A stretch of DNA of 64,000 bases from positions 4,960,001 through 5,024,000 of the forward strand of contig NC_017030.1 in the NCBI RefSeq assembly GCF_000255295.1, read 5' to 3'. The position numbers were made by a program, and so were the translations under genes. Positions 51,127 through 64,000 of this stretch are shown here, piece by piece (within the stretch, counting starts at the first letter, position 1; every line of letters begins with the position of its first letter). Origin of the DNA: Corallococcus coralloides DSM 2259. GTDB taxonomy: Bacteria > Myxococcota > Myxococcia > Myxococcales > Myxococcaceae. Under the pieces are notes generated by a model. The model saw nothing but the letters and a program-made list of their open reading frames with translations, did not search any database and was not told the origin of the DNA.

Positions 51127-52721
<1,595 letters not shown>

Positions 52722-52725
<4 letters not shown>

Positions 52726-53558
52726 GCGCCCGCCGCGCGGCCCAGGAGCATGCGCTGGCCTTCCCGCGCGGGCTCGGTGAAGGGGAACAGGCCGCGCGCC
52801 TGCTGCGCCATGTCCTCCAGCAGCTCGTCCGCGTGGGACGGGTCGTGGTGGAAGAGGAAGAGGCGCCCGGCGTGCAGGTCCTTGGCCACCTTGGCCGCGT
52901 CCATCATCGTCGAGTGGCCCCAGCCCTTCTTGGACATGCCCTTCCTGCCCTCGTACTCGTCAGGCGTGTACTGCGCGTCCAGGCACAGCGCGTCCGCGCC
53001 CTCGAAGTGGCGGGCCACGTCCGACGTGAGGCGCTCCGGCAGCTCCACGTCCGTGGCGTACACGAAGGAGTGGCCGTCCGCCTCCACGCGGTACGCCATG
53101 CAGCCGTCCGGGTGCGGCACGTCGATGGGCGTCACCTTGAAGGGGCCCACCTCCACGGTGCGGCCGTGCAGCGCGGCGCCGAAGGTCATCTTCGAGCGCA
53201 TGGTGGACAGCGGCACCGGGAACTGCGGCGGGCGCATCTGCTGGGACAGCGTGGACTCCAGCGCCTGGGCACCATTCGCGCCGGGGCCGTACATCGTCAG
53301 CGACGTGGTGGGCAGGTACGCGGGCGTGAAGAAGGGGAAGCCCTGCACGTGATCCCAGTGCAGGTGCGAGAAGAACATCGTCGCCTTCTGCGGAGCGCCC
53401 TCGCGCATCATGACCTCGCCCAACGTCCGGATGCCCGTGCCCGCGTCGAGGATCAGCCGCTCGCCCTGGCTCGTCACCTCCACGCACGCCGTGTTGCCAC
53501 CAATGCGCGAGCCCGACACCGCAATGCTGCCCCGAACGCCAAAGAAGCGGATTTCCAT
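52722..53558 (-). CDS. MBL-fold metal-dependent hydrolase
   Basis: A 278-residue metallo-beta-lactamase-fold hydrolase. The metal motif is SHLHWDH, with a further His in VPHPDG, an Asp in VYATDVE and a late His in GHSTMMDAA. The pattern is of the cyclic-phosphodiesterase/PqqB-like type rather than a beta-lactamase. It is coupled to the sigma-54 activator. Its ATG (53558) lies inside the overlapping end of the integrase frame, which I take as a by-product of phage integration upstream. Confidence 0.88.
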
Positions 53559-55054
53559 GATGGGTCTCCAGATGCGCTGACGCCCGCTGGGGGCGCCCTG
53601 ACGTGGAGGGGACAGAGCACGTTCGGTGCCAGCGCCAAGGGGCTGGAATCATTGGAGTGGCGGGGGTGGGGCAGGGCGGGCCGCTCCATTCTGGAGCGCT
53701 CCGGATGGGGCGGGCGGTCCAATCCGGAGCGGCCCAGTGCGTGGGGGATTCCTGGTAGACCCCGGGGCCATGCCGACGATTGCGTTCTGCACCATCTAGA
53801 ATCGGCATCGGCCGAAATGGTTGCAGGCATCGCTGGAAGTCCTTGAATTTGTAATGCTTTTGCCTCGTGGACGGCAGGGGACTCCCCCTGGAATGTAGCC
53901 CACGTGTTCGCCACGTGCTCGTCCGCCGCACCCACCGTAAGGCGGACCTTTCCCATCTGCTGTTCGAGGTGACCCACGTCGGTCGCGAGGTAGACGGCCG
54001 CCGTGATCTGAGGGTTGGCATGGCCCAGCAGTCGCTGCGTGGTGACGAGGTCCCCGGTCGCCTGGTGCACGAGGCTGCCGAACTGCTTGCGGAGTCCGTG
54101 GAAGGTGAATCCCTCGGGCAGATTCACTCCAGCTCGCGCGGCGATGTTGCGCAGGAGCGCGGTCACCGGCCAAGTGGCGTACCTCATGCCGCCGGTGCGC
54201 GTGGACGGGAACACGAGTCCTTCTGTCGCACCTGCGTTGCGCCGGTATGCCTCCAGCTCCGGCCGGAGCTGCGGATGAACCGGCACGAGACGCTCCTTGC
54301 CGCCCTTGGTGGTGTCGCGTCCCCAGCTCCTACGCACGTGGATGACGCCGTTTGCTCCAGCGCTCCAGTCGATGTCTTCCCAGCGCAGCGCGGCCAACTC
54401 GCCGCGGCGCAACCCCGTCAAAATCGCGACCAACAGTAGGGGCCGCCACGGCCCGGCCGCTGCGAGCAGGGCCCCAATCTGCTCGGGCCGAAGTACCTTC
54501 ACAGCTCGTCGCGGCAGCGGCGGGTGGCTCACCGAGGCCCAAGGGTTCTTCTCGATGACGAGGAGCTTCTTGCACGCGTACTCGAAAACGAGGCGGGCCC
54601 GGATGTAGAGAACGCGGGTCGTTGTCGCCGCCTGTCCGGCGTCACGAGACTTCTGGAGCAGCGCCTCGCAGTCGGCCGGTGTCACCTGCGTCACGAGCTT
54701 CTTGCCGAAGTGCGGCCCGACCCATCGGCGCAGTTGGCTCTGCATGGGCTTGATGCTCGCGAGGTGCTGGCTCGCGGCCATGTACTTCTCCAGAAGCTCC
54801 GCGCAGGTGATGGGCGGCACTGGCATCTTCTCCAGGCCCGCACGGACGCGCTCCGCGCGCATCGCCTTCTCGTGAACGAGGCGCTCGGCTTCCGCCTCCA
54901 TCCGCGCCTCACACGACTCGCGCACCTTCCGGCCCGCCTCGTCGCGGTAGCGCAGCCACCAAGTGCCGTACGTGGGGGACTCGCGCCGCAGCCGCTTGCC
55001 GGCAGCGACGAGCGCCTTGCCGACGCGGTTGGGGCGGAAGTAGACGCTCGTCAC
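53474..55054 (-). CDS. Tyrosine-recombinase prophage integrase with host-derived C-terminus
   Basis: A phage integrase of 526 residues. The catalytic set is complete: Arg216 in TGLRRGEL, Lys near 250, His319-x-x-Arg322 in FHGLRKQF, His345 in LLGHANP and the nucleophile Tyr355. A core-binding domain lies at about 80-180. The catalytic fold ends near residue 372, yet the frame runs 150 residues more, changes to low-complexity Pro/Arg/Ser sequence near residue 420, and overlaps the host hydrolase gene by 85 bases. In phage Mx8 attP lies inside the integrase gene and integration swaps its 3' end; the same is inferred here. GTG 55054 overlaps the excisionase stop (GTGA) and has GGAGAAG upstream. 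Confidence 0.9.
   Translation of the reverse strand: MTSVYFRPNRVGKALVAAGKRLRRESPTYGTWWLRYRDEAGRKVRESCEARMEAEAERLVHEKAMRAERVRAGLEKMPVPPITCAELLEKYMAASQHLASIKPMQSQLRRWVGPHFGKKLVTQVTPADCEALLQKSRDAGQAATTTRVLYIRARLVFEYACKKLLVIEKNPWASVSHPPLPRRAVKVLRPEQIGALLAAAGPWRPLLLVAILTGLRRGELAALRWEDIDWSAGANGVIHVRRSWGRDTTKGGKERLVPVHPQLRPELEAYRRNAGATEGLVFPSTRTGGMRYATWPVTALLRNIAARAGVNLPEGFTFHGLRKQFGSLVHQATGDLVTTQRLLGHANPQITAAVYLATDVGHLEQQMGKVRLTVGAADEHVANTWATFQGESPAVHEAKALQIQGLPAMPATISADADSRWCRTQSSAWPRGLPGIPHALGRSGLDRPPHPERSRMERPALPHPRHSNDSSPLALAPNVLCPLHVRAPPAGVSASGDPSWKSASLAFGAALRCRARALVATRRAWR
53678..53735. promoter_or_regulatory. Nested palindromes upstream of the MBL hydrolase gene
   Basis: Three overlapping perfect inverted repeats lie in 58 bases: GGGCCGCTCC/GGAGCGGCCC (53678-53687, 53726-53735), CGCTCC-ATTCT-GGAGCG (53682-53698) and CGCTCCGGAT/ATCCGGAGCG (53697-53706, 53722-53731). 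CCATTCTGGAGCG and CCAATCCGGAGCG also form a direct repeat. They begin 120 bases upstream of the hydrolase start, so an operator or leader structure is likely. Confidence 0.6.
53740..53880. other. Probable phage-host junction (attachment site region)
   Basis: The integrase reading frame loses catalytic-family character here and composition becomes AT-richer around 53840-53865. An att core should lie in this interval. I found no tRNA gene overlapping it, and the core cannot be fixed without the other prophage end. Confidence 0.4.
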
Positions 55055-55290
55055 GGACGCTTCTCCGAGGGCTGCTGCTCCACCCACGCGCGCACCTTCG
55101 CCGGGCTGAAGCGGTAGTTGCGCGTCCCCAGCTTCACGAATGGGAAGCCCGTGTTGGCCCGGACCTGCTTCCACACCCAGGCGGTGGACACGCCGAGATA
55201 GGCGGCCACCTTCTCAGCTGACCAAAACCCCTCATCGGGCACGGCCGCCAGCCGCGCCCCCTCACCGGAACTGCTCCCGTCACAGCTCAT
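55051..55290 (-). CDS. Excisionase-like MerR/HTH_17 DNA-binding protein
   Basis: A 79-residue protein with a winged helix-turn-helix of the excisionase type (FWSAEKVAAYLGVSTAWVWKQ, then FVKLGTRNYRFSPAKVRAWV). It would bend DNA at the att site and steer the integrase toward excision. ATG 55290 has a GAGGTGAG site; the stop overlaps the integrase GTG (GTGA), so the pair is translationally coupled. Confidence 0.88.
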   Translation of the reverse strand: MSCDGSSSGEGARLAAVPDEGFWSAEKVAAYLGVSTAWVWKQVRANTGFPFVKLGTRNYRFSPAKVRAWVEQQPSEKRP

Positions 55291-55479
55291 GCTCACCTCG
55301 TTGTCGGACTCTGCCGTGGCGTGTGCATCGCGCGCGATGCACGCAGGAGGCCACGCGGAGGAACGAGACACGTCGGGGAGTGCTGTGGCGCGACCCCGTC
55401 TCAACACAGGGCGGGTGTCCGCCTCGCGGGATGGTGCGCGGTCGATGTCGGGATGCTCGTGCCCCATGCGAACCCCACC

Positions 55480-55532
55480 CAGAAACAAAGAGGTGCTCCG
55501 CCGACGGACCTAAGAAACGCCGACGGAGCACC
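55480..55532 (-). terminator. Terminator-like hairpin, prophage minus strand
   Basis: On the minus strand GGTGCTCCG (55524-55532) pairs with CGGAGCACC (55492-55500), followed by TCTTTGTTTCT. It could end transcripts coming from the accessory gene, keeping xis-int separate. Confidence 0.65.
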
Positions 55533-55593
55533 GGAGGGCGGGTGTCCCGACATCACTCGGGTGCACCGGCCTTTTCTGGTAGCCAGCCGCACG

Positions 55594-55734
55594 ATGGCGG
55601 AGGCCAAGCTCGATTTGGGAGGCGATCCACCGCTTAGGTCACTGCTTCAGCGGACCGCTGGAACTGCGCAATACCTCAAAAGGGGTAACACCAGTCAGGC
55701 AGCCGCGCAAGTGGGCATCTCGCGGAAGACCTGA
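55594..55734 (+). pseudogene. Doubtful small ORF resembling a truncated helix-turn-helix
   Basis: A 46-residue frame starting ATG ends in TSQAAAQVGISRKT, which looks like the recognition part of a Fis/HTH_8 domain cut just before its last helix. No ribosome site is seen. It may be a remnant of a regulator or chance. Confidence 0.25.
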
Positions 55735-55737
55735 GCA

Positions 55738-56592
55738 CTACATGCCGGCGGGGCGATAGCACTTGCCCTTGTGCTCGTACTGCTTGTCGCCGCACGGCGC
55801 CTGCCGGTCAGTGGCAACCCAGCAGGCCCCATTGATCAGGCGCTCACTAGCATCGGGGTCGCAGTCCTTCGTCTTCTGCCCCTTGAGCGGGCGCTTTGGG
55901 ACCTCAATCGACATCTCAGGTGCATCGGGCGTCGAGGCGGCGAGAACGAGGCCGATGGGCACATGCGGCGGTCGCGTCGGCGTCGGCTCCAGGGCTCCGC
56001 TCGGCATCATGATGGAGCCCAGGATGGCGGCGGCTGCGATAACGACGGACACGTAGCCGCTCTTCAGCGTGTTGGTCCAGGTCCGCGCGAGCACTCGCCG
56101 GGCTCGCCTCCAGTGTCTGCGCGAGCGCAGGATGGGACCGCGGGGCCGAGCTGGGGCGCGAAGGTGCGCCATGGTGGCGGCCAGTTCGCTGCGCGTGCAG
56201 GTGGCCTGCACCATCGCCTTGGCGAGGCTCAAGGCACCCTCTGCGACGCGAGCCACGTCCGCGTCGGATGCGTCCTCTGACACGTTGGCCAGCCGGAAAC
56301 GCACGCGCGAGGGCGCATGTTCTGTCGCTGCTCGCGCGGAGACGACCATGTCCACATCCACGTCCGGGTGGAAGTCCGGGCGCCGTCCCGTTGCGTGAAG
56401 GTCGAGGGACGGGGCGCCCGTCTTCGCATCGCGCACCTGGTACAGGCGACCCAGCAGAATGCGTCGGTAACGGCGGATGATGATGTCGAGCAGTCGCTCA
56501 TGGCTTCCTGCACGTGGGGCTTTCGTGCTGCTGCCGCCACTGCGCAAGGACACCGACACCGGGCCCTTCCAGATATTCTCTGCCTGCCTCAT
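55738..56592 (-). CDS. Prophage accessory membrane protein with Cys-rich C-terminus
   Basis: A 284-residue protein of unknown role. The N-terminal 150 residues are soluble and mixed alpha/beta (a helix near 34-50, then PDVDVDMVVSARAAT). A membrane helix lies at about residues 178-198. The C-terminal part ends in a Cys-rich motif, with INGACWV, then PCG, YEHKGKCYRP. Similar short Cys tails occur, to my knowledge, at the ends of some myxobacterial Ser/Thr kinases; no kinase domain is present here. It is 39 bases downstream of the ribbon-helix-helix gene and probably in the same operon. Confidence 0.7.
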   Translation of the reverse strand: MRQAENIWKGPVSVSLRSGGSSTKAPRAGSHERLLDIIIRRYRRILLGRLYQVRDAKTGAPSLDLHATGRRPDFHPDVDVDMVVSARAATEHAPSRVRFRLANVSEDASDADVARVAEGALSLAKAMVQATCTRSELAATMAHLRAPARPRGPILRSRRHWRRARRVLARTWTNTLKSGYVSVVIAAAAILGSIMMPSGALEPTPTRPPHVPIGLVLAASTPDAPEMSIEVPKRPLKGQKTKDCDPDASERLINGACWVATDRQAPCGDKQYEHKGKCYRPAGM

Positions 56593-56631
56593 TCCGCCCC
56601 TCGCACAGTCGCTCGCTACGCGGCCTGGCCG

Positions 56632-56901
56632 CTACTTCCTCGCCCGGGTTTTCTTCGTCGGAGCCTCGGTGGACTCTTCCTGAACAGCCTTGAGGTGTTT
56701 CTCGTAGCTCGCGAGCTGCGCTGGCGTTGCGTCCTTTCGCCAAGCCTCCTCCGCCCAGTGAAGCAACTCCTCGATGACCTCGTTCCGGCTGCGGTCCAAC
56801 GTCCGGGCAATGGCCTCCAGTCGATGCCACTGCTGGATCCGGAGACGCAGCGGGACGGCACGGATGGGGTTGTTGCTGTGGTCAACCAGTACAGGGGACA
56901 T
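56632..56901 (-). CDS. Ribbon-helix-helix-like prophage regulator
   Basis: An 89-residue protein with a strand (IRAVPLRLRI) followed by two helices (WHRLEAIARTLD and RNEVIEELLHWAEEAW), the layout of CopG/Arc-type ribbon-helix-helix DNA-binding proteins. The tail is Lys/Arg-rich. ATG 56901 has a GGAGGG site. It is preceded by palindromes in the divergent region and is the likely binder of them. Confidence 0.72.
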   Translation of the reverse strand: MSPVLVDHSNNPIRAVPLRLRIQQWHRLEAIARTLDRSRNEVIEELLHWAEEAWRKDATPAQLASYEKHLKAVQEESTEAPTKKTRARK

Positions 56902-56965
56902 GAGAACCCTCCGGCGCACCGGGCCGGTTTCAGCGGATCCGGAGTTCGCAGAACTGTTGCGAACC

Positions 56966-57028
56966 AACTATGGTATCGAAAATAGTTCGAGTCAAATCGG
57001 AAGTAGTTTCGGTTTTGGTACTACTTCC
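56966..57028. promoter_or_regulatory. Operator-like palindromes in the prophage divergent region
   Basis: AACTAT/ATAGTT (56966-56971, 56982-56987) and GGAAGTAGT/ACTACTTCC (56999-57007, 57020-57028) are perfect inverted repeats; AGTTCGAGT and AGTTCGACT form a direct repeat flanking the second. The stretch is AT-richer than its surroundings and lies between divergent genes, as expected for a promoter-operator. Confidence 0.65.
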
Positions 57029-57067
57029 AGTTCGACTTGCAGGCGGTTGGCGCCCCTTCTTGGGGGT

Positions 57068-57286
57068 ATGCCTCCTCGTCGCCCCCGGAATCCGTCGCCC
57101 GAGCTGCAGCGCCACCGGCAGGTCCGCGCGGACTACCTGCGCGACTTGGCCCATCTCCAGGGCGTGGCCGAGCCAACGCCCCAGCCGCGCGAGATTCCAC
57201 CCGAGGAACGCTGCCCGACCTGCGATGGCCCGACCTTCATCACTGGGTATGGCCGGGTGTGCAGTCTGGGGCTGCATGACGGGTGA
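57068..57286 (+). CDS. Small prophage protein with a C-terminal cysteine motif
   Basis: A predicted 72-residue protein: a basic N-terminus (PPRRPRNPSPELQRHRQ), a helix, and RCPTCDGPTFITGYGRVCS, which could be half a zinc ribbon. The upstream site is only a G-run. No family is recognised, and the call is moderate. Confidence 0.5.
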   Translation: MPPRRPRNPSPELQRHRQVRADYLRDLAHLQGVAEPTPQPREIPPEERCPTCDGPTFITGYGRVCSLGLHDG

Positions 57287-57352
57287 GAGTGTTCATGCCC
57301 CTGCGGAGGAGTCCGCAAGCGCTATGCTTGGTCTCCTGGGAGGGACTTGCAA

Positions 57353-58054
57353 ATGCTGAAGGTGTGCTGGGGGGCGGTGATGCTCGCTGCCGCCGTGTTG
57401 TCGTTCGTATCGCGAAGCGCAACGGCCGCCGAGGAAGGCGAATGGGCTGAATGGGGTACCGGTGGAGCATCGGACTCGGGCACCATCGGCGTGACCGCGC
57501 AGGCTGACGGCGGCAGGGACGTTCCTGAGCCAGCCATGATGAGCGAGGCCGCCGACGACGACCAGCCTTCTTCCATGTTGGAAGGGCGTGATGCTGGGAG
57601 CGCCAGGAAAGGGCGTGCCGGCACATTGGCCGCTGATGTGAACGGCTATCAAGATTTGCGCTGGGGAATGAAGCTTCCAGAAGTGCAGAGGCGTATGCCC
57701 GGTCTCGAGGAGTCATCCCGAGGGCTGTGGGTGAAAGAAACCGTCGTGGCTGGGTTTCCAGCATTCATTGGGCTCGCGTTTAAGAATGGCAAGCTCAAGG
57801 AGGCGACCGTTCAGTTTTCGAGAGAGATACCTCGGGGCCTGAGTCGCGAAGAGCACCGGAGCGCGATAATAAATGCTCTCACCAAGAAGTATGGTGCTCC
57901 GAAGAAGGAGGAGGGCTTCCTGGGTGAGCACCAGACTTGGTCAAACGACCGGATGACCATCACGGCATCGGATACCATTCATGGCTACACGGTGACGTAC
58001 ACGAGCCTGCGCCTCCTCAAGGAGGTTGAAGAAGTCTCTCCCGATGGACTGTAG
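57353..58054 (+). CDS. Secreted protein of unknown function, candidate phage moron
   Basis: A 233-residue exported protein. A signal peptide (cut near ATA-A) is followed by a disordered acidic stretch to about residue 95, and then a compact domain (GYQDLRWGMKLPEVQRRM, AGFPAFIGLAFKNGKL, TKKYGAPKKEEGF). The last part resembles small bacterial proteins of the WGM-x-x-x-EV type, of unknown role. The second half is visibly AT-richer than the rest of the window. It faces the tail genes (stops 4 bases apart) and has its own ribosome site (GGGAGGGA), so it could be expressed in the lysogen. Confidence 0.78.
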   Translation: MLKVCWGAVMLAAAVLSFVSRSATAAEEGEWAEWGTGGASDSGTIGVTAQADGGRDVPEPAMMSEAADDDQPSSMLEGRDAGSARKGRAGTLAADVNGYQDLRWGMKLPEVQRRMPGLEESSRGLWVKETVVAGFPAFIGLAFKNGKLKEATVQFSREIPRGLSREEHRSAIINALTKKYGAPKKEEGFLGEHQTWSNDRMTITASDTIHGYTVTYTSLRLLKEVEEVSPDGL

Positions 58055-58057
58055 CGG

Positions 58058-60460
58058 TCACGCCTCTTGGCGGAACCTCACGCCGTCGAGGTTGAACTCC
58101 GTCGTGCTGCCGGAGATGGGTGTCACGGCGCCGTCGGACGTGATGCGCACCCGGCCGAAGAGGGAGCCGGAGTCGACGAGCAGGCGCTGCTCATTGAGGG
58201 GGCGGTACCCTGGCGGCAGCACGAAGGCTGCCACGCCGAAGGTGCCGTTCCTCATCGCACCGCCCAGCACCACGTCCCCAGCGCTGTTCTTGTAGTAGTT
58301 GGGGTTGCGCGGGGCTCCGACGCCCACCCAGCCGGAGGAGCCAATCAGCGTGGCATGCTCGTAGTCTGGGGGCCGTGGCTGCGGGATGACGCGCGTGGAG
58401 TCGACGTAGAGCGTGTATGCCAGCGCATTCGCCTTCCCAACGTAGAGCTGGCCGTAGCGAGCGCCTCCGGGGGCGGTGACGCTCGCGCCACGTCCCAGCT
58501 CCTGCCAGCCGGCGCCAGCCTGGAGGCGGTCGACCTCGCTGATGCTGAGCAGGTTGAAGTTGCCATCCAGCCAGGCAATCCACAGCAGGCCCTGATAGTT
58601 CGCGCCCACGCCCTCGGGGCCCCCGCGCATCAGCGCGCTGGCGAAGTACAGGTCCCCGGGCCGCACCGTGAAGCGTTGACTGCCCAGCTTCGTGTCCACC
58701 GCCGTGGGCGCAAGCCGCACGGCGCGGACGCCGCTCAGGACGGTGGAGGACTCCGCAAAGCCGTCTACGCCCCAGGTCCCGGGCGAGAGTGCCCAACCGT
58801 CCGGCGGCAGCTCAGGGTCGGACTGCGCCTCGAAGTCCGAGTTCGTCGGCAGCGCGGCATAGGTGACGGTCGGCAGCAGCATGGACGGCGCGACATACCG
58901 AGGCTCCAGAGTTACTTCAGTGCTGGACGGCCCTGCGTTGCCCTGCGCGTCGCGGGGGATGACGCGTGCGTAGTAGGCGCGGCCCGCAACCAGGTCCGCC
59001 ACCTCGAAGCGCGTCGCGCGGCTGTTGGCTCTAAACGTCGCCTGCGAGGGGGTGAAGCTGGAAGAACTGCTGATGTGGAGCTCGTAGGAGTCCCACTCGG
59101 GCCCGGTAGCCGCTGGCGTCCACGCGAGGCTGAAGCCGTTGACGGTGTTCGTCACCGTCAACCCGGACGGCGCGGACGGCCCCGTGAATGGAACGCTCGG
59201 CGCGACCCCCGGCCGCGACTCCTTCGACGCCCAGACGGCGAGGCTTGTGGACGGGCGCCCGCGCAGCTCGAGCTTCGTGCGCGCCTCGCCGCTGGAGGCC
59301 GCTTCGAAGTCGACGGACTGGATGGCCAGCGCCTGCGCGGAGTCGAACCGCACGCCGTCGGGCTGGACCTCGATGAGGTCCGACGGCTCCAGGTACCAGT
59401 GAATCCCGGGGAGCGTCAGCGTCATGCTCAGCGCCGATTCGGAGAGGTCCGAGAGCCCGGCGTTCGCCAGGCGCAACGCCTCCGCCCCGGTGTCAATGAG
59501 GTCGGATGCCTTCAGCGCAACTCTCATCCACCGACGCCCGACGAGGGCGATGCTCGCGGCGTTGCTGACCTCCACCGTCTTGCGCTTGCGCGCGCCGGTT
59601 GCGTCGAGGTCCGCCTTGTCGGAGTACACCACCTGCACGACGTTTCGCACGTGCTCCAAGCTCTGTCGCACCGGGGACGCGTCCAGGTAGTAGTCCGGAC
59701 TGTAGCTCGCGACCGGCGTCAGCGTCGTGCGGTCAGGGCTCCAGAGCGTGAGCGCGAAGGCGTTCGCGTCCGGACGCCAGCGCATGCGGACGTCCCAGCC
59801 AATCTGCTCGGCGAGGAAGCGCAGCGCATCCAGGATGGGCTCCTGCTTCTGGGTGTATGGCCCGCGCACGCTGCTTGGGTTGACGGGCGTGTAGAGCCCG
59901 TAGCTGCCCATGCCGTTGTCGTTGAGGATGGACTGGATGATGGACTGCACGGCGACACCAGCCGCGCTGCCGTAGTTTCTGTCCGTCTCGATGTGCGTGT
60001 CCTGCAGGACGCCGCCGAGGTCCCGGCCGCTGAAGGTCATCTCCTCTGGCCCGGGGTCCACCTCGTCGATGCGACCGCGCCACGCCTCCGTCCACGAACT
60101 CGACGGCACCAGTTCCCGAGGAGCTCCGAGTGGCGCCGCGGCCACCTCGATGCGGAAGTACGCGCCCGCGTGAATGAGCGGCACGTACGCGCCGCCGCTC
60201 GTGTTGAGGACGCTCGCCACCACGAGCGGCGCCAGCGAGAGCCGAGCGCCTCCAGGCCCGTTGCGTACGACCGTCACGCTGGCGGTCGACACGGGCGCCT
60301 CGATGCTGTCCGACCACGAGGCGCCAAGGAGGTAGTCCCCGCCCAGCAACGTCGAGAGGTCCACCCACGTGGCGTCGCGCTGCACCAGCACGCGGACGTG
60401 CGACGCGAATCCAGCCCGGCACGAAGCCAGGGCTGAGGAGCTACTGGAGAGCGAACGCAT
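58058..60460 (-). CDS. Phage tail protein with fibronectin type III domain
   Basis: An 800-residue structural protein. The first 400 residues resemble tail hub or baseplate proteins (an FSGRDLGGVLQDT segment, a LRFLAEQIGWDVRM domain). Residues about 430-525 form a fibronectin type III domain (PSAPSGLTVTNTVNG, YYARVIPRDAQGN). A jelly-roll-like region and a C-terminal strand-rich domain follow, perhaps for receptor binding. The ATG overlaps the upstream stop by one base (TGATG). Confidence 0.82.
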   Translation of the reverse strand: MRSLSSSSSALASCRAGFASHVRVLVQRDATWVDLSTLLGGDYLLGASWSDSIEAPVSTASVTVVRNGPGGARLSLAPLVVASVLNTSGGAYVPLIHAGAYFRIEVAAAPLGAPRELVPSSSWTEAWRGRIDEVDPGPEEMTFSGRDLGGVLQDTHIETDRNYGSAAGVAVQSIIQSILNDNGMGSYGLYTPVNPSSVRGPYTQKQEPILDALRFLAEQIGWDVRMRWRPDANAFALTLWSPDRTTLTPVASYSPDYYLDASPVRQSLEHVRNVVQVVYSDKADLDATGARKRKTVEVSNAASIALVGRRWMRVALKASDLIDTGAEALRLANAGLSDLSESALSMTLTLPGIHWYLEPSDLIEVQPDGVRFDSAQALAIQSVDFEAASSGEARTKLELRGRPSTSLAVWASKESRPGVAPSVPFTGPSAPSGLTVTNTVNGFSLAWTPAATGPEWDSYELHISSSSSFTPSQATFRANSRATRFEVADLVAGRAYYARVIPRDAQGNAGPSSTEVTLEPRYVAPSMLLPTVTYAALPTNSDFEAQSDPELPPDGWALSPGTWGVDGFAESSTVLSGVRAVRLAPTAVDTKLGSQRFTVRPGDLYFASALMRGGPEGVGANYQGLLWIAWLDGNFNLLSISEVDRLQAGAGWQELGRGASVTAPGGARYGQLYVGKANALAYTLYVDSTRVIPQPRPPDYEHATLIGSSGWVGVGAPRNPNYYKNSAGDVVLGGAMRNGTFGVAAFVLPPGYRPLNEQRLLVDSGSLFGRVRITSDGAVTPISGSTTEFNLDGVRFRQEA

Positions 60461-61329
60461 CAGGCAGCCTCCGGCTGTTGCAACAGTTCGAAGTCCATGT
60501 ACTGGCCCTGCACCCGCGCGCCGTCCTCGTCGTACTCCATGGCCTGCGCGTCGAGCGCCTGGCCCAGCACGCGGAACGGCCCCGGGATGCCTGCCCCGTC
60601 AGCGGTGTGATACGGCAGCGCCCCAAAGGGTTGGCCAGCAGCGCCCCATGCGTACCACTGGGGGATCCACGCGCGCGGCACCTCGTAGGGCAGCAGCACC
60701 AAGTCGTCGATATCCAGGATGCTCGGGGTGCCAGTTTCGGCTGTGCGGTTGGAAACGGAGAGCGCGCTGGGGGTGACGAGGCCCACGCCCAAACCGATAC
60801 CCGTCTCGGCAATCAGCTCATCAGCCGCCATCCACTCCTCGCCGTTCAGCCAGGTCTGGTTCCCGTTCGCGTCGACGACGACGTGCGCCCACGCTCCAGC
60901 GCTGAAGGCGCCCCTCATCCACGCCCCGACGAAGTACCTGCCGGTGGTGGCCGTGGCCCAGGTGACGGAGGCGCCGGCCGCAAGCGCCAAGCCACCCGTG
61001 CCGTACCGGGGCGTGGAACTGCCGGGCCCCACACCAATGGTGCCCACGGCCGTCCCGGTGAGTCCCTTGCTGCTCACGAGTCCGGCGTCGGCGTTGGCCT
61101 CGAAGGACCAGGAGTGTCCGTCGCCGTCGATGAGCCGGCGCAGGGCTTGAGCTTCCGCCATCGACATCGGCGGCGTGCCGCCTGCCCAGGTGAAGACGCG
61201 AGAGCGGGTGCCGCTCTGCGCCCACCCGCTGAAGGTCCGCACGCGCGGGCCCAGCAGCGTGGGCTTCTGGGTGAGCCCCTTCGCTGCCGAGCACCGCACC
61301 TCAATACCGCTGAGGGTGAGATAGGCCAT
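60460..61329 (-). CDS. Phage tail-associated protein
   Basis: A 289-residue protein beginning with a beta-rich domain (MAYLTLSGIEVRCSAAKG) and containing a central carbohydrate-module-like sandwich (GRYFVGAWMRGAF, WAHVVVDANGN). Its place between the tape-measure-like and fibronectin tail genes suggests a distal tail or adaptor protein. The family is not recognised with certainty. Confidence 0.7.
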   Translation of the reverse strand: MAYLTLSGIEVRCSAAKGLTQKPTLLGPRVRTFSGWAQSGTRSRVFTWAGGTPPMSMAEAQALRRLIDGDGHSWSFEANADAGLVSSKGLTGTAVGTIGVGPGSSTPRYGTGGLALAAGASVTWATATTGRYFVGAWMRGAFSAGAWAHVVVDANGNQTWLNGEEWMAADELIAETGIGLGVGLVTPSALSVSNRTAETGTPSILDIDDLVLLPYEVPRAWIPQWYAWGAAGQPFGALPYHTADGAGIPGPFRVLGQALDAQAMEYDEDGARVQGQYMDFELLQQPEAA

Positions 61330-61355: not shown

Positions 61356-64000
61356 CTACGCGTATCGTGAGCCGATGGCGGCAGCCGTGCCGAAGAGGCG
61401 AACGCCCGCCTTCCGCTGCCGGTCCTCGTAATCCTGCCGGGCCTTCGCCATGGCGTCGTCGAGGTCGAAGCCGGTGATGTTGTACTGGACGGGCGGCATC
61501 GCCGCGGCGCTAGCGGCCCCGCCACCGGAGCGAGCCGGCAGCTGGTCGAAGAAGTCCCGCAGCCAGGGGAACAGGCTGAGTGCACCGTCTCCACGGCTGA
61601 TGGGGGGCAGCGCCTCGGGCGCGGGCGCCGTCGGAGTCGAGGGGACGCCAGTCGTGGGTGATGGCTGGGTGCCGGGCGTCGTGTTCGGACCGTCCTGCTC
61701 GTCCTGGGCGTCGAAGCGACGGAGGGCCACCTTCCACAAGTCGGGCACGTTGCTGAGGGCCTCGTTCACATCCTCCAGCGCGTCCCGGTTCTTGAGCACC
61801 TCCGCCGTCTCCCGAGCCTTGGCCATGGCCGCGTCCCACGTCAGGCCCTCCAACTCCTGGATGCTCCGGGCCAGCGCCTCCGTGTCTACCTTCGCGCCCT
61901 CCATCGACTTGGCCCATCCCTTGAGGAATCCGAGCGGATGCGCGCCGAAGATGGAGATGTCGCCCAGCGCCCGAAACACGGACTGGATGGCGGAGACGAT
62001 GCCGTTCCACGCGGAGCCCAACCCCTTGATGATGTAGAGGATGGCGATGGCCACGTAGCGGAGCACCTGGAACAGTCCCTTGAGGACGTTGTCGAGCAGC
62101 CACGCGGTCGCCTTGCCGATGGCGTCGATGGCGGGCGCGAGCATCTTCAGCACCATGCCCACCAGGACGATGATGGGCGCAATGCTTTCCATAGCCTCCC
62201 CCATCGCCTCCATCGATGGTTGCACGACCTCGACGATGACGGACACGAGGTAGCCGACGCCGCCCATGATGGTGTCGAGCCCGGTGGCGGCCGCACCAAA
62301 CAGGTCCTTCAACATCCCGATGACGCCGTTCAACACGTCGATGGCCGAGGCCATCTGGTCGGACCCCATGACCAGTTCGCCGATGGTAGCCAGCAGCGCA
62401 CCCCACCAGCCGCCGGCCTCGAACCCCTTCTTCGCAGTATCGATGATGCCGCTGATCTCTCCCAGCCCTCCCAGAAAGCCGTAGAGGAGGTCCGCCTTCG
62501 CAGCAGCAGCTGCTGCCGCTGCTTCCTCCGCAGCCTTGCGGATGGACTCAGCGAGTGCCTTGGCGTTGTCCTCCATCACCTTGGCATAGGCCTCCATGGC
62601 CGGCGAGCCCAGCCCTCCGCGGAGCCGCTCCGCGAAACGCTCCGTTCCCTTGTGACCTACCGCGGACACATCGATGCCGTTCTCGTCCCCGGCGCCAGTC
62701 CGCAACGTGGCCTTCGCGTCACCACTGAAGAGGGAGTCGAGCAGGGCCTTCAACTCACCCATCTTCCCCTTCCACTCCTCGACCGTCTTCGAGTTGAGGA
62801 CCGCCGCGACGATGTCCTGGATGCCGGAGAGGGAGTGTTGCAGGCCGAAGCCCACCGTATCCTTCACAGCGCCAGCTGCCGCCTTCGCCCCGTCGGCCGC
62901 CTTCGTGGCAATGAGCACCGCGCCCCTGTTCAACTCTGCCGTCGCCTTCGCAGCCTTCTCGACGAACGCATTCCCGCCGGCCGCCAGCGCCTCCATAATC
63001 CCCTTCTTCAACCCCTTGCCGGTGAGATTCTCCGCTGATGCCAATGCCTTATCTGCGTTGCCCATGCCGACCGCGCGCGCAATAGGACGAAGAACGCTTG
63101 CGCTTTTGGCCACCAGGAACGCGACGAAGTCGAGTGAGCGGTCCACCATCGACTCAACGGTGGAGGAGAGAGCGCTGAAGGCGAGCCCGAAGACATTGGC
63201 CAGCCTCATGGCGACGTCGGAGAGGCCCGCCATCATCTCGGAGACGGACTGAGACATCGAACTCCATGCGTCCTTGGCCAGGTACTTGATGTCCCCCCAC
63301 GACTTGTAGACGCTGCCGACGAGGAGCGCGATGCCCGCGAGCGCGGCGACGACGGCCAGGATGGGGATGGCGGCGGTAGCGAAGCTGACAGCTATCCGCC
63401 CGACACCGCCCAATAGGGATGGGACAGACTTCGTGAAGTCCGCCGCCGCGGAACCCAGCCCGCCGACACCGGACTTCATGCCGGCCAGCGCCTTGCCGAT
63501 GTCCACCTGGGCCAGCGTCTGGAGGGATTGGAGCGCCTTGCCCGCGCCCACGCCCAGGTGCGTGAAGACGGGCAGGACGCCCTTGCTCAACTCCAGGAAG
63601 ATGCCGAACCCCTTGAAGAGCCCCTCCATGGTGCCCGCCAGCTTGCCCACGGCGCCGATGCCGAGGCCCAGCCCGGCCACCCACGCTGCCATGGAGGCCG
63701 CTGCGCGCTTCGACTCCGGCGAGAGAGACTGAAGCTTCGCCACCACCTGCTCGATGACCTGCGCCACCTTCTTCACCAGCGGCGCGAAGAGGTCGCCGAG
63801 CTCGGCTGCGAGCGTGACGAGCAGTGCCTTGATGCGCTCAGTCTGCTCCTTCATGGCCGCATTGGACTCGGCGGCGGCCGCCACCGCGGCGGCGATGCCC
63901 GCGGCAACGACGGCACCGATTTTTCCGACAGGGTCGGTCGCCTCCTTCACCTGCTTGGCAACCTTCTCCGCGTGCTTCACGAACTTGCCGAGGTTGGCCA
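61356..64000 (-). CDS. Phage tape-measure-like tail protein (5' partial)
   Basis: Over 880 residues of a long, mainly alpha-helical protein. It has Ala/Lys/Glu coiled-coil stretches, several hydrophobic segments (AVVAAGIAAAVAAAAE, FATAAIPILAVVAALAGIA, and helices near the middle) and a Pro/Thr-rich linker before the C-terminus. This is the pattern of tape-measure proteins, which set tail length. The frame stays open to the window end (an in-frame GTG at 63980 is probably internal), so the start lies outside. Confidence 0.82.
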   Translation of the reverse strand, partial: ANLGKFVKHAEKVAKQVKEATDPVGKIGAVVAAGIAAAVAAAAESNAAMKEQTERIKALLVTLAAELGDLFAPLVKKVAQVIEQVVAKLQSLSPESKRAAASMAAWVAGLGLGIGAVGKLAGTMEGLFKGFGIFLELSKGVLPVFTHLGVGAGKALQSLQTLAQVDIGKALAGMKSGVGGLGSAAADFTKSVPSLLGGVGRIAVSFATAAIPILAVVAALAGIALLVGSVYKSWGDIKYLAKDAWSSMSQSVSEMMAGLSDVAMRLANVFGLAFSALSSTVESMVDRSLDFVAFLVAKSASVLRPIARAVGMGNADKALASAENLTGKGLKKGIMEALAAGGNAFVEKAAKATAELNRGAVLIATKAADGAKAAAGAVKDTVGFGLQHSLSGIQDIVAAVLNSKTVEEWKGKMGELKALLDSLFSGDAKATLRTGAGDENGIDVSAVGHKGTERFAERLRGGLGSPAMEAYAKVMEDNAKALAESIRKAAEEAAAAAAAAKADLLYGFLGGLGEISGIIDTAKKGFEAGGWWGALLATIGELVMGSDQMASAIDVLNGVIGMLKDLFGAAATGLDTIMGGVGYLVSVIVEVVQPSMEAMGEAMESIAPIIVLVGMVLKMLAPAIDAIGKATAWLLDNVLKGLFQVLRYVAIAILYIIKGLGSAWNGIVSAIQSVFRALGDISIFGAHPLGFLKGWAKSMEGAKVDTEALARSIQELEGLTWDAAMAKARETAEVLKNRDALEDVNEALSNVPDLWKVALRRFDAQDEQDGPNTTPGTQPSPTTGVPSTPTAPAPEALPPISRGDGALSLFPWLRDFFDQLPARSGGGAASAAAMPPVQYNITGFDLDDAMAKARQDYEDRQRKAGVRLFGTAAAIGSRYA

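Follow-up and report, generated by a model that had tools for sequence, protein, structure and literature searches.

Salmonella prophages carry accessory genes antisense to lytic genes, one of them with its own promoter, and in prophage BTP1 the antisense RNA STnc6030 over the tailspike gene gives superinfection exclusion (PMC7067206). Prophages are also known to contain accessory and defence hotspots, small high-turnover loci between two conserved phage genes in which some occupants are defence genes. Ltp of Streptococcus thermophilus phages is reportedly a superinfection-exclusion lipoprotein. The gene described here, P0001, lies in a prophage of Corallococcus coralloides DSM 2259, within the 64,000-nucleotide stretch that was analyzed (the window; NC_017030.1, positions 4,960,001 to 5,024,000). 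It belongs with the known antisense prophage accessory genes, and its protein family was found in none of the libraries searched. As with the BTP1-type genes, P0001 occupies the strand opposite to lytic genes and independent transcription is proposed, but transcription was measured in Salmonella, whereas P0001 and its locus are known from sequence only, and STnc6030 is a non-coding RNA whereas the locus here encodes a protein (PMC7067206). The locus shares with known hotspots its small size and turnover; here, however, it usually holds one or two small genes that are mostly signal-bearing and convergent with a tail operon, in a different phage family. P0001 resembles Ltp in being a prophage-encoded, probably exported protein for which an exclusion role is proposed, but no Pfam family common to both was found, and P0001 has a Gram-negative host and no lipobox. 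The literature matches listed, judged by title and the start of the abstract, included no paper on the cargo genes of such prophages.

In a Myxococcaceae prophage family, the tail operon is followed at its convergent 3' end by a swappable slot, apparently for morons, which the P0001 gene currently occupies. Sequence comparison shows that the slot exists, that its contents differ between conserved flanks, and that P0001 is a constrained protein with a signal-like N-terminus. P0001 is probably (with a probability of about 0.7) a moron acting in the envelope of the lysogen. The features of the region are these:

53474-55174, minus strand: ORF with the prophage integrase (tested as 53477-55117; PHROG 4.3e-60; Pfam PF00589)
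57068-57286, plus strand: conserved 72-codon gene bordering the slot on the left, in which inspection shows two CxxC-like pairs (flank alignments)
57287-58057: swapped unit (cassette), leader plus ORF, from the upstream-gene stop to the tail-gene stop (blastn)
57320-57326, plus strand: CGCTATG, a variant of the putative cassette promoter-like motif [TC]GCTANG (post hoc)
57338-57344, plus strand: ribosome site GGGAGGG (sequence inspection)
57353-58054, plus strand: cargo (moron) gene P0001, 233 amino acids plus stop, ATG start (ORF call; homologues)
57353-57427, plus strand: signal-peptide-like N-terminus, residues 1-25, with cleavage after ATA placed by eye (hydropathy, inspection)
57428-57640, plus strand: linker, residues 26-96, low-confidence and probably disordered (pLDDT mostly <50; dN)
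57641-58051, plus strand: conserved C-terminal domain ("WGM"), residues 97-233 (alignments, structure models)
58058-60460, minus strand: fn3-domain tail protein bordering the slot on the right (PHROG and Pfam; 55 relatives)
60460-61329, minus strand: middle tail-region gene, no match in PHROG or Pfam
61356-63980, minus strand: tape measure protein (PHROG 4.8e-18)

The P0001 gene is convergent with the last tail gene, and their stop codons are 3 bp apart. The preliminary description had proposed an exported protein on the strand opposite the tail genes, with its own ribosome site and an AT-richer second half. These points hold: the ORF lies on the plus strand and the tail genes on the minus strand, hydropathy supports a signal-like N-terminus, GGGAGGG precedes the start, and G+C falls from 0.641 in the first half to 0.558 in the second. 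The 72-codon gene, which ends 66 nt upstream on the same strand, was absent from that description. The portal and terminase genes of the same prophage sit outside the window, in contig piece L035 (PHROG, Pfam). A scan of 52000-58500 returned no tRNA, and a possible attachment repeat (at 53028 and at L036 8556) is 15 bases only and not convincing.

The N-terminus of P0001 (MLKVCWGAVMLAAAVLSFVSRSATA-AEE) is Sec-signal-peptide-like, with a 12-residue hydropathy peak of 2.61 within residues 1-45; a peak of at least 2.0 was found in 1 of 84 other genes of the prophage. Inspection of the putative cleavage site showed no lipobox Cys. The composition of the gene is atypical for its prophage, as in morons, with a GC3 of 0.68 against a mean of 0.864 (sd 0.077) for the 84 other genes, four of which are at or below 0.70. 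When P0001 was compared with its ~57-58%-identical homologue G007:C42, dN was 0.64 over residues 1-96 and 0.21 over residues 97-233, where dS was 1.80 and saturated. These values indicate purifying selection on residues 97-233, with synonymous sites saturated. A chance ORF was ruled out by this constraint, the conserved homologues, the ribosome site, and the signal-like N-terminus.

To compare the locus across related prophages, window positions 56901-58300 were used as a blastn query against slot regions. In the four nearest regions (L145, L143, L144, and L141), the left flank matched at 82-84% DNA identity up to 57284-57287, the stop of the upstream gene being at 57286, and the match restarted at 58058, the tail-gene stop, at 76-86%. 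Nothing aligned between these points, and other genes occupy the gap. G014 (74%) and G007:C159 (72%) also restarted at 58058, with the left match of G007:C159 reaching only 57192, and G010 and G006 matched from 58070 only. Because the flank matches break at both stops, the swapped unit takes in the leader together with the ORF, and its end coincides with the tail-gene stop. As judged from these alignments, the P0001 gene is an extra gene between conserved neighbors that is replaced in close relatives. The cargo DNA itself aligned with G007:C42, at 70%, and for this pair the cargo pS (0.67) exceeded the tail-gene pS (0.46). The difference fits separate histories for cargo and tail gene, and composition may contribute to it. 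The earlier proposal of a lysogenic-conversion (moron) gene is thus well supported by the comparison, since unrelated genes replace P0001 between conserved flanks in related prophages; it is also favored by the AT-richness, the signal, and the antisense placement of the gene relative to the tail genes.

A search of 96 family genomes with the fn3 tail protein gave 55 matches, spread over 34 of them. The regions examined were 54 tail places (50 downstream DNAs and four earlier ones, with G117:C124 left out) and the viral contig L079, 55 in all. A WGM gene, detected by profile A1, was present in 9 of the 55 regions (8 of the tail places, plus L079) and was always convergent with the tail gene. 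By reading, convergent cargo was counted at 24 of the 54 tail places; the remaining 30 hold same-strand or conserved early genes, give doubtful calls, or run into a contig end. The gene calling behind this count was crude and GC3-based. The scan gave no tail end in L147 (which was read separately), L175, L179, L195, or L079, and L185 and L195 are truncated by contig ends. Convergent calls in L159, L178, L180, L182, L183, and L196 were left out as conserved early genes or doubtful frames (by eye), and L184 was left out as a minus-strand gene after a plus-strand gene. With three further slot proteins, the 24 cargos (n = 27) fell into about 13 groups by phmmer linkage. The largest group joins WGM proteins with a separate lipoprotein of the KGLDTIE type, and in G055 and G116 the two domains are fused in one protein.

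Slot occupants are mostly exported or lipoprotein-like, and some are defence genes. A hydropathy peak of at least 2.0 near the N-terminus occurred in 15 of 23 scored cassettes, against the 1 of 84 given above; L147 was unscored, and L149 and L077 fell below 2.0 yet look exported, by eye, from a later start. Besides further exported proteins, the occupants include BamE-like lipoproteins, that of L173 barely at the Pfam cut-off. In other genera of the family, the slot holds Shedu SduA (1.2e-82; L187 2801-3634, G130), HEC-08 (4.3e-50; L177 3531-4571, G104), and, as second slot gene in L188 (G129), an HNH/GIY-like HNH nuclease; weaker DzbB and NERD matches were also found among the contents. The SduA and HEC-08 proteins are cytosolic, and their genes are without the promoter-like motif. 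As judged from these regions, the slot is a prophage accessory/defence hotspot, with high turnover between two conserved genes and known defence genes among its occupants.

P0001 matched proteins in 25 of 98 related genomes at E ≤0.01, the window's own genome included. Besides the window itself, that search gave close homologues only in G007:C42 (58%; same genus) and G055:C5 (39%), and the remaining matches mostly cover residues ~70-200. The three-row alignment A2 extended the matches to 44 of 96 family genomes at E 0.001 and added a fourth close copy, in G116. All four close copies (window, G007:C42, G055, and G116) are convergent with a related tail gene; in G055, one other small gene lies between the tail gene and the P0001 homologue. 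More distant relatives are encoded on chromosomes within the same bacterial family. They have the same conserved domain and sequence pattern as the phage copy, G[FY]Q..xWGM..xEV ... F ... KYG.P ... W, but several carry a lipobox and second-half insertions (by eye), whereas in the phage copy the linker is longer and there is no lipobox. Across 18 aligned rows Q100, G105, M106, P116, F143, G181, and W196 are invariant, and the final residue is L in 15, phage and host alike. Short versions occur in viral contigs L043, L079, and L044, in the last beside a repressor-like gene. P0001 had no match in Pfam, NCBIfam, or PADLOC (0 PADLOC families at E 0.1), its best PHROG match was 16276 at E 0.47 only, and nine WGM proteins (two phage, seven other) had no Pfam match at E 1. 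The viral-contig search with P0001 returned only the window's own prophage. Three Acinetobacter phage matches in INPHARED (E 0.6) and two PDB profile matches to CHMP5 (E 0.12-0.13) were taken as chance. Profile comparison gave no support for an internal repeat of the WGM domain, nor for a relationship between its halves and the BamE-like proteins found in the slot.

The structure of P0001 was modeled from six sequences. Residues 1-96 were mostly at pLDDT <50 and the remainder was well predicted, with helices and three strands followed by a long helix, then four strands and a last helix; modeled alone, the WGM domain had a mean pLDDT of 79. In VIA-align comparisons, in which unrelated models commonly score 7-8, the best solved neighbor was YjgB of DUF4309 (Z 9.0, rmsd 3.8, 122 aligned; and Z 8.6, 3.9, 116), followed by an IF2-TAGH model (8.2, 8.1), RhsI1 (8.1, 7.7), the YdcD double-wing (7.0, 7.3), and BLIP (5.7, 5.5). 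BLIP has been likened to two BamE-like units; BamE as a fold relative was set aside, with Z scores of 4.3 and 4.7 to part of the model being too weak. Foldseek found nothing in the PDB at E 0.001; in BFVD it matched two viral proteins below 0.001, one named a transcriptional regulator and the other uncharacterized. The predicted fold thus weakly resembles DUF4309, RhsI1, and BLIP, as a lead only. These neighbors are secreted or inhibitor proteins, and the faint likeness makes it plausible that P0001 binds an envelope protein.

The cassette leaders were also compared. In 12 of 29 cassette leaders, the sequence [TC]GCTANG precedes the start by 28-37 nt, whereas a first-order Markov control gave a mean of 0.77 and a maximum of 5 in 2000 trials; this control is post hoc, since the motif was first spotted by eye in the same leaders. 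Several of the leaders are related, and by eye they make up ~7 independent groups. Of 106 leaders of prophage genes, only that of the P0001 gene matched, and no match occurred in 34 host-gene leaders of the window; for these comparisons, cassette starts were hand-picked at signal-like starts (one TTG) and control starts were the first possible ones. All motif-bearing leaders precede exported-type cargo (12 of 22, against 0 of 7 for other cargo), and in some, TTGNCC lies ~17-18 nt upstream of the motif (by eye). A first motif test had found TANNNT in 7 of 22 leaders (shuffle mean 3.7, p 0.057) and TA.GCT in 3 (p 0.005). The motif may be an extended -10 element carried by the cassettes. The P0001 gene itself has the CGCTATG variant, the leader of G007:C42, the closest homologue, lacks the motif, and a sigma-70 consensus scan found no site on the P0001 strand. 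Intrinsic-terminator-like sites numbered 0 in 56600-58400, with 1.2 expected by chance.

The same-strand gene 66 nt upstream makes read-through into P0001 possible, and this conserved neighbor is an argument for regarding P0001 as an early or lytic-phase gene, the last in a short plus-strand operon (57068-58054) used in infection rather than in the lysogen. Such a gene might, for instance, shield the envelope of the infected cell from competitors before lysis. Elsewhere in the family (for example in G010, G006, G014, G002:C506, and G047), cargo likewise follows same-strand zinc-ribbon-like and sigma-factor-like genes (labels by eye). The swapped unit, however, begins directly past the upstream stop codon and includes the leader, and the motif common to unrelated cassettes sits in that leader, which leaves a lytic-phase role unlikely.

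Two further explanations start from the host and from the virion. P0001 could belong to the contact-dependent social toxins and immunity genes of myxobacteria, for instance to the SitA/SitI system of outer membrane exchange or one like it, and be carried by the prophage as a means of discriminating against non-lysogens. Such loci are often on mobile DNA in Myxococcus (PMC8546572), and the probably disordered linker past the signal peptide and the weak fold likeness to the immunity protein RhsI1 would suit this role. SitA, however, is a lipoprotein and sitA and sitI form one operon, whereas P0001 has no lipobox Cys at its putative cleavage site and is alone in a one-gene cassette with no partner, so that this origin is very improbable. 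P0001 might also be a tail accessory protein or a chaperone, with a role in the virion or its assembly, whose gene is on the opposite strand by chance. Among the carriers examined, its position beside the tail gene, or one gene off (G055, G099), would accord with this. Tail proteins related at 68-77% identity nevertheless stand beside unrelated cargo or none, and the signal-like N-terminus and low GC3 also speak against a role in the tail, for which the odds are slight indeed.

If P0001 is a moron of the lysogen envelope, a promoter inside the cassette would drive its transcription in the lysogen, and the protein would be released into the periplasm, where its C-terminal domain, on a flexible linker, would bind and block or alter an envelope protein. 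The likeliest payoff may be superinfection exclusion, the alternative being a changed host envelope function. For exclusion as such the odds seem somewhat below even. The phage exclusion suggested in the preliminary description is a reasonable guess, because known defence genes (SduA and HEC-08) occupy the same place in some sister prophages, which makes a defence role likelier than for an arbitrary moron; this argument does not transfer directly to P0001, since those proteins are cytosolic and come from other genera. A broader and rather doubtful extension is that the slot works in myxobacterial phages as a portable cassette from which envelope-acting exclusion proteins are expressed, with one promoter-like element across unrelated exported cargos, and that WGM proteins are a new family of periplasmic superinfection-exclusion inhibitors related to host proteins. 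The transcript might also continue past the cassette, antisense to the tail gene, and counter incoming phages of related types, as is reported for STnc6030; such run-through is conceivable because only 3 bp lie between the end of the cassette and the tail-gene stop and the scan detected no terminator. If the moron reading is true, the slot would be a ready source of candidate genes for exclusion and defence, many of which look exported and are unannotated, in bacteria studied for predation and social life.

A second low-GC3 gene of the prophage (0.56) lies antisense between the portal and terminase genes (L035 9323-10057, plus strand; ~5031322-5032056 of the genome), with a counterpart in G055 (L039 4466-5098, plus strand, GC3 0.66) that is likewise antisense between portal and terminase genes. 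Neither had a Pfam or PHROG match, and they possibly mark a second cargo slot. Two further low-GC3 genes of the same prophage are at L036 1745-2056 (minus strand) and L035 18582-19517 (minus strand), the latter with a PIN-domain-like start by eye. The window gene at 55738-56592 (minus strand) had no PHROG or Pfam match and is present in related prophages (95% in G004, 76-81% in G007); in some genera, many chromosomal proteins show weak similarity to its product, mainly toward the C-terminus.
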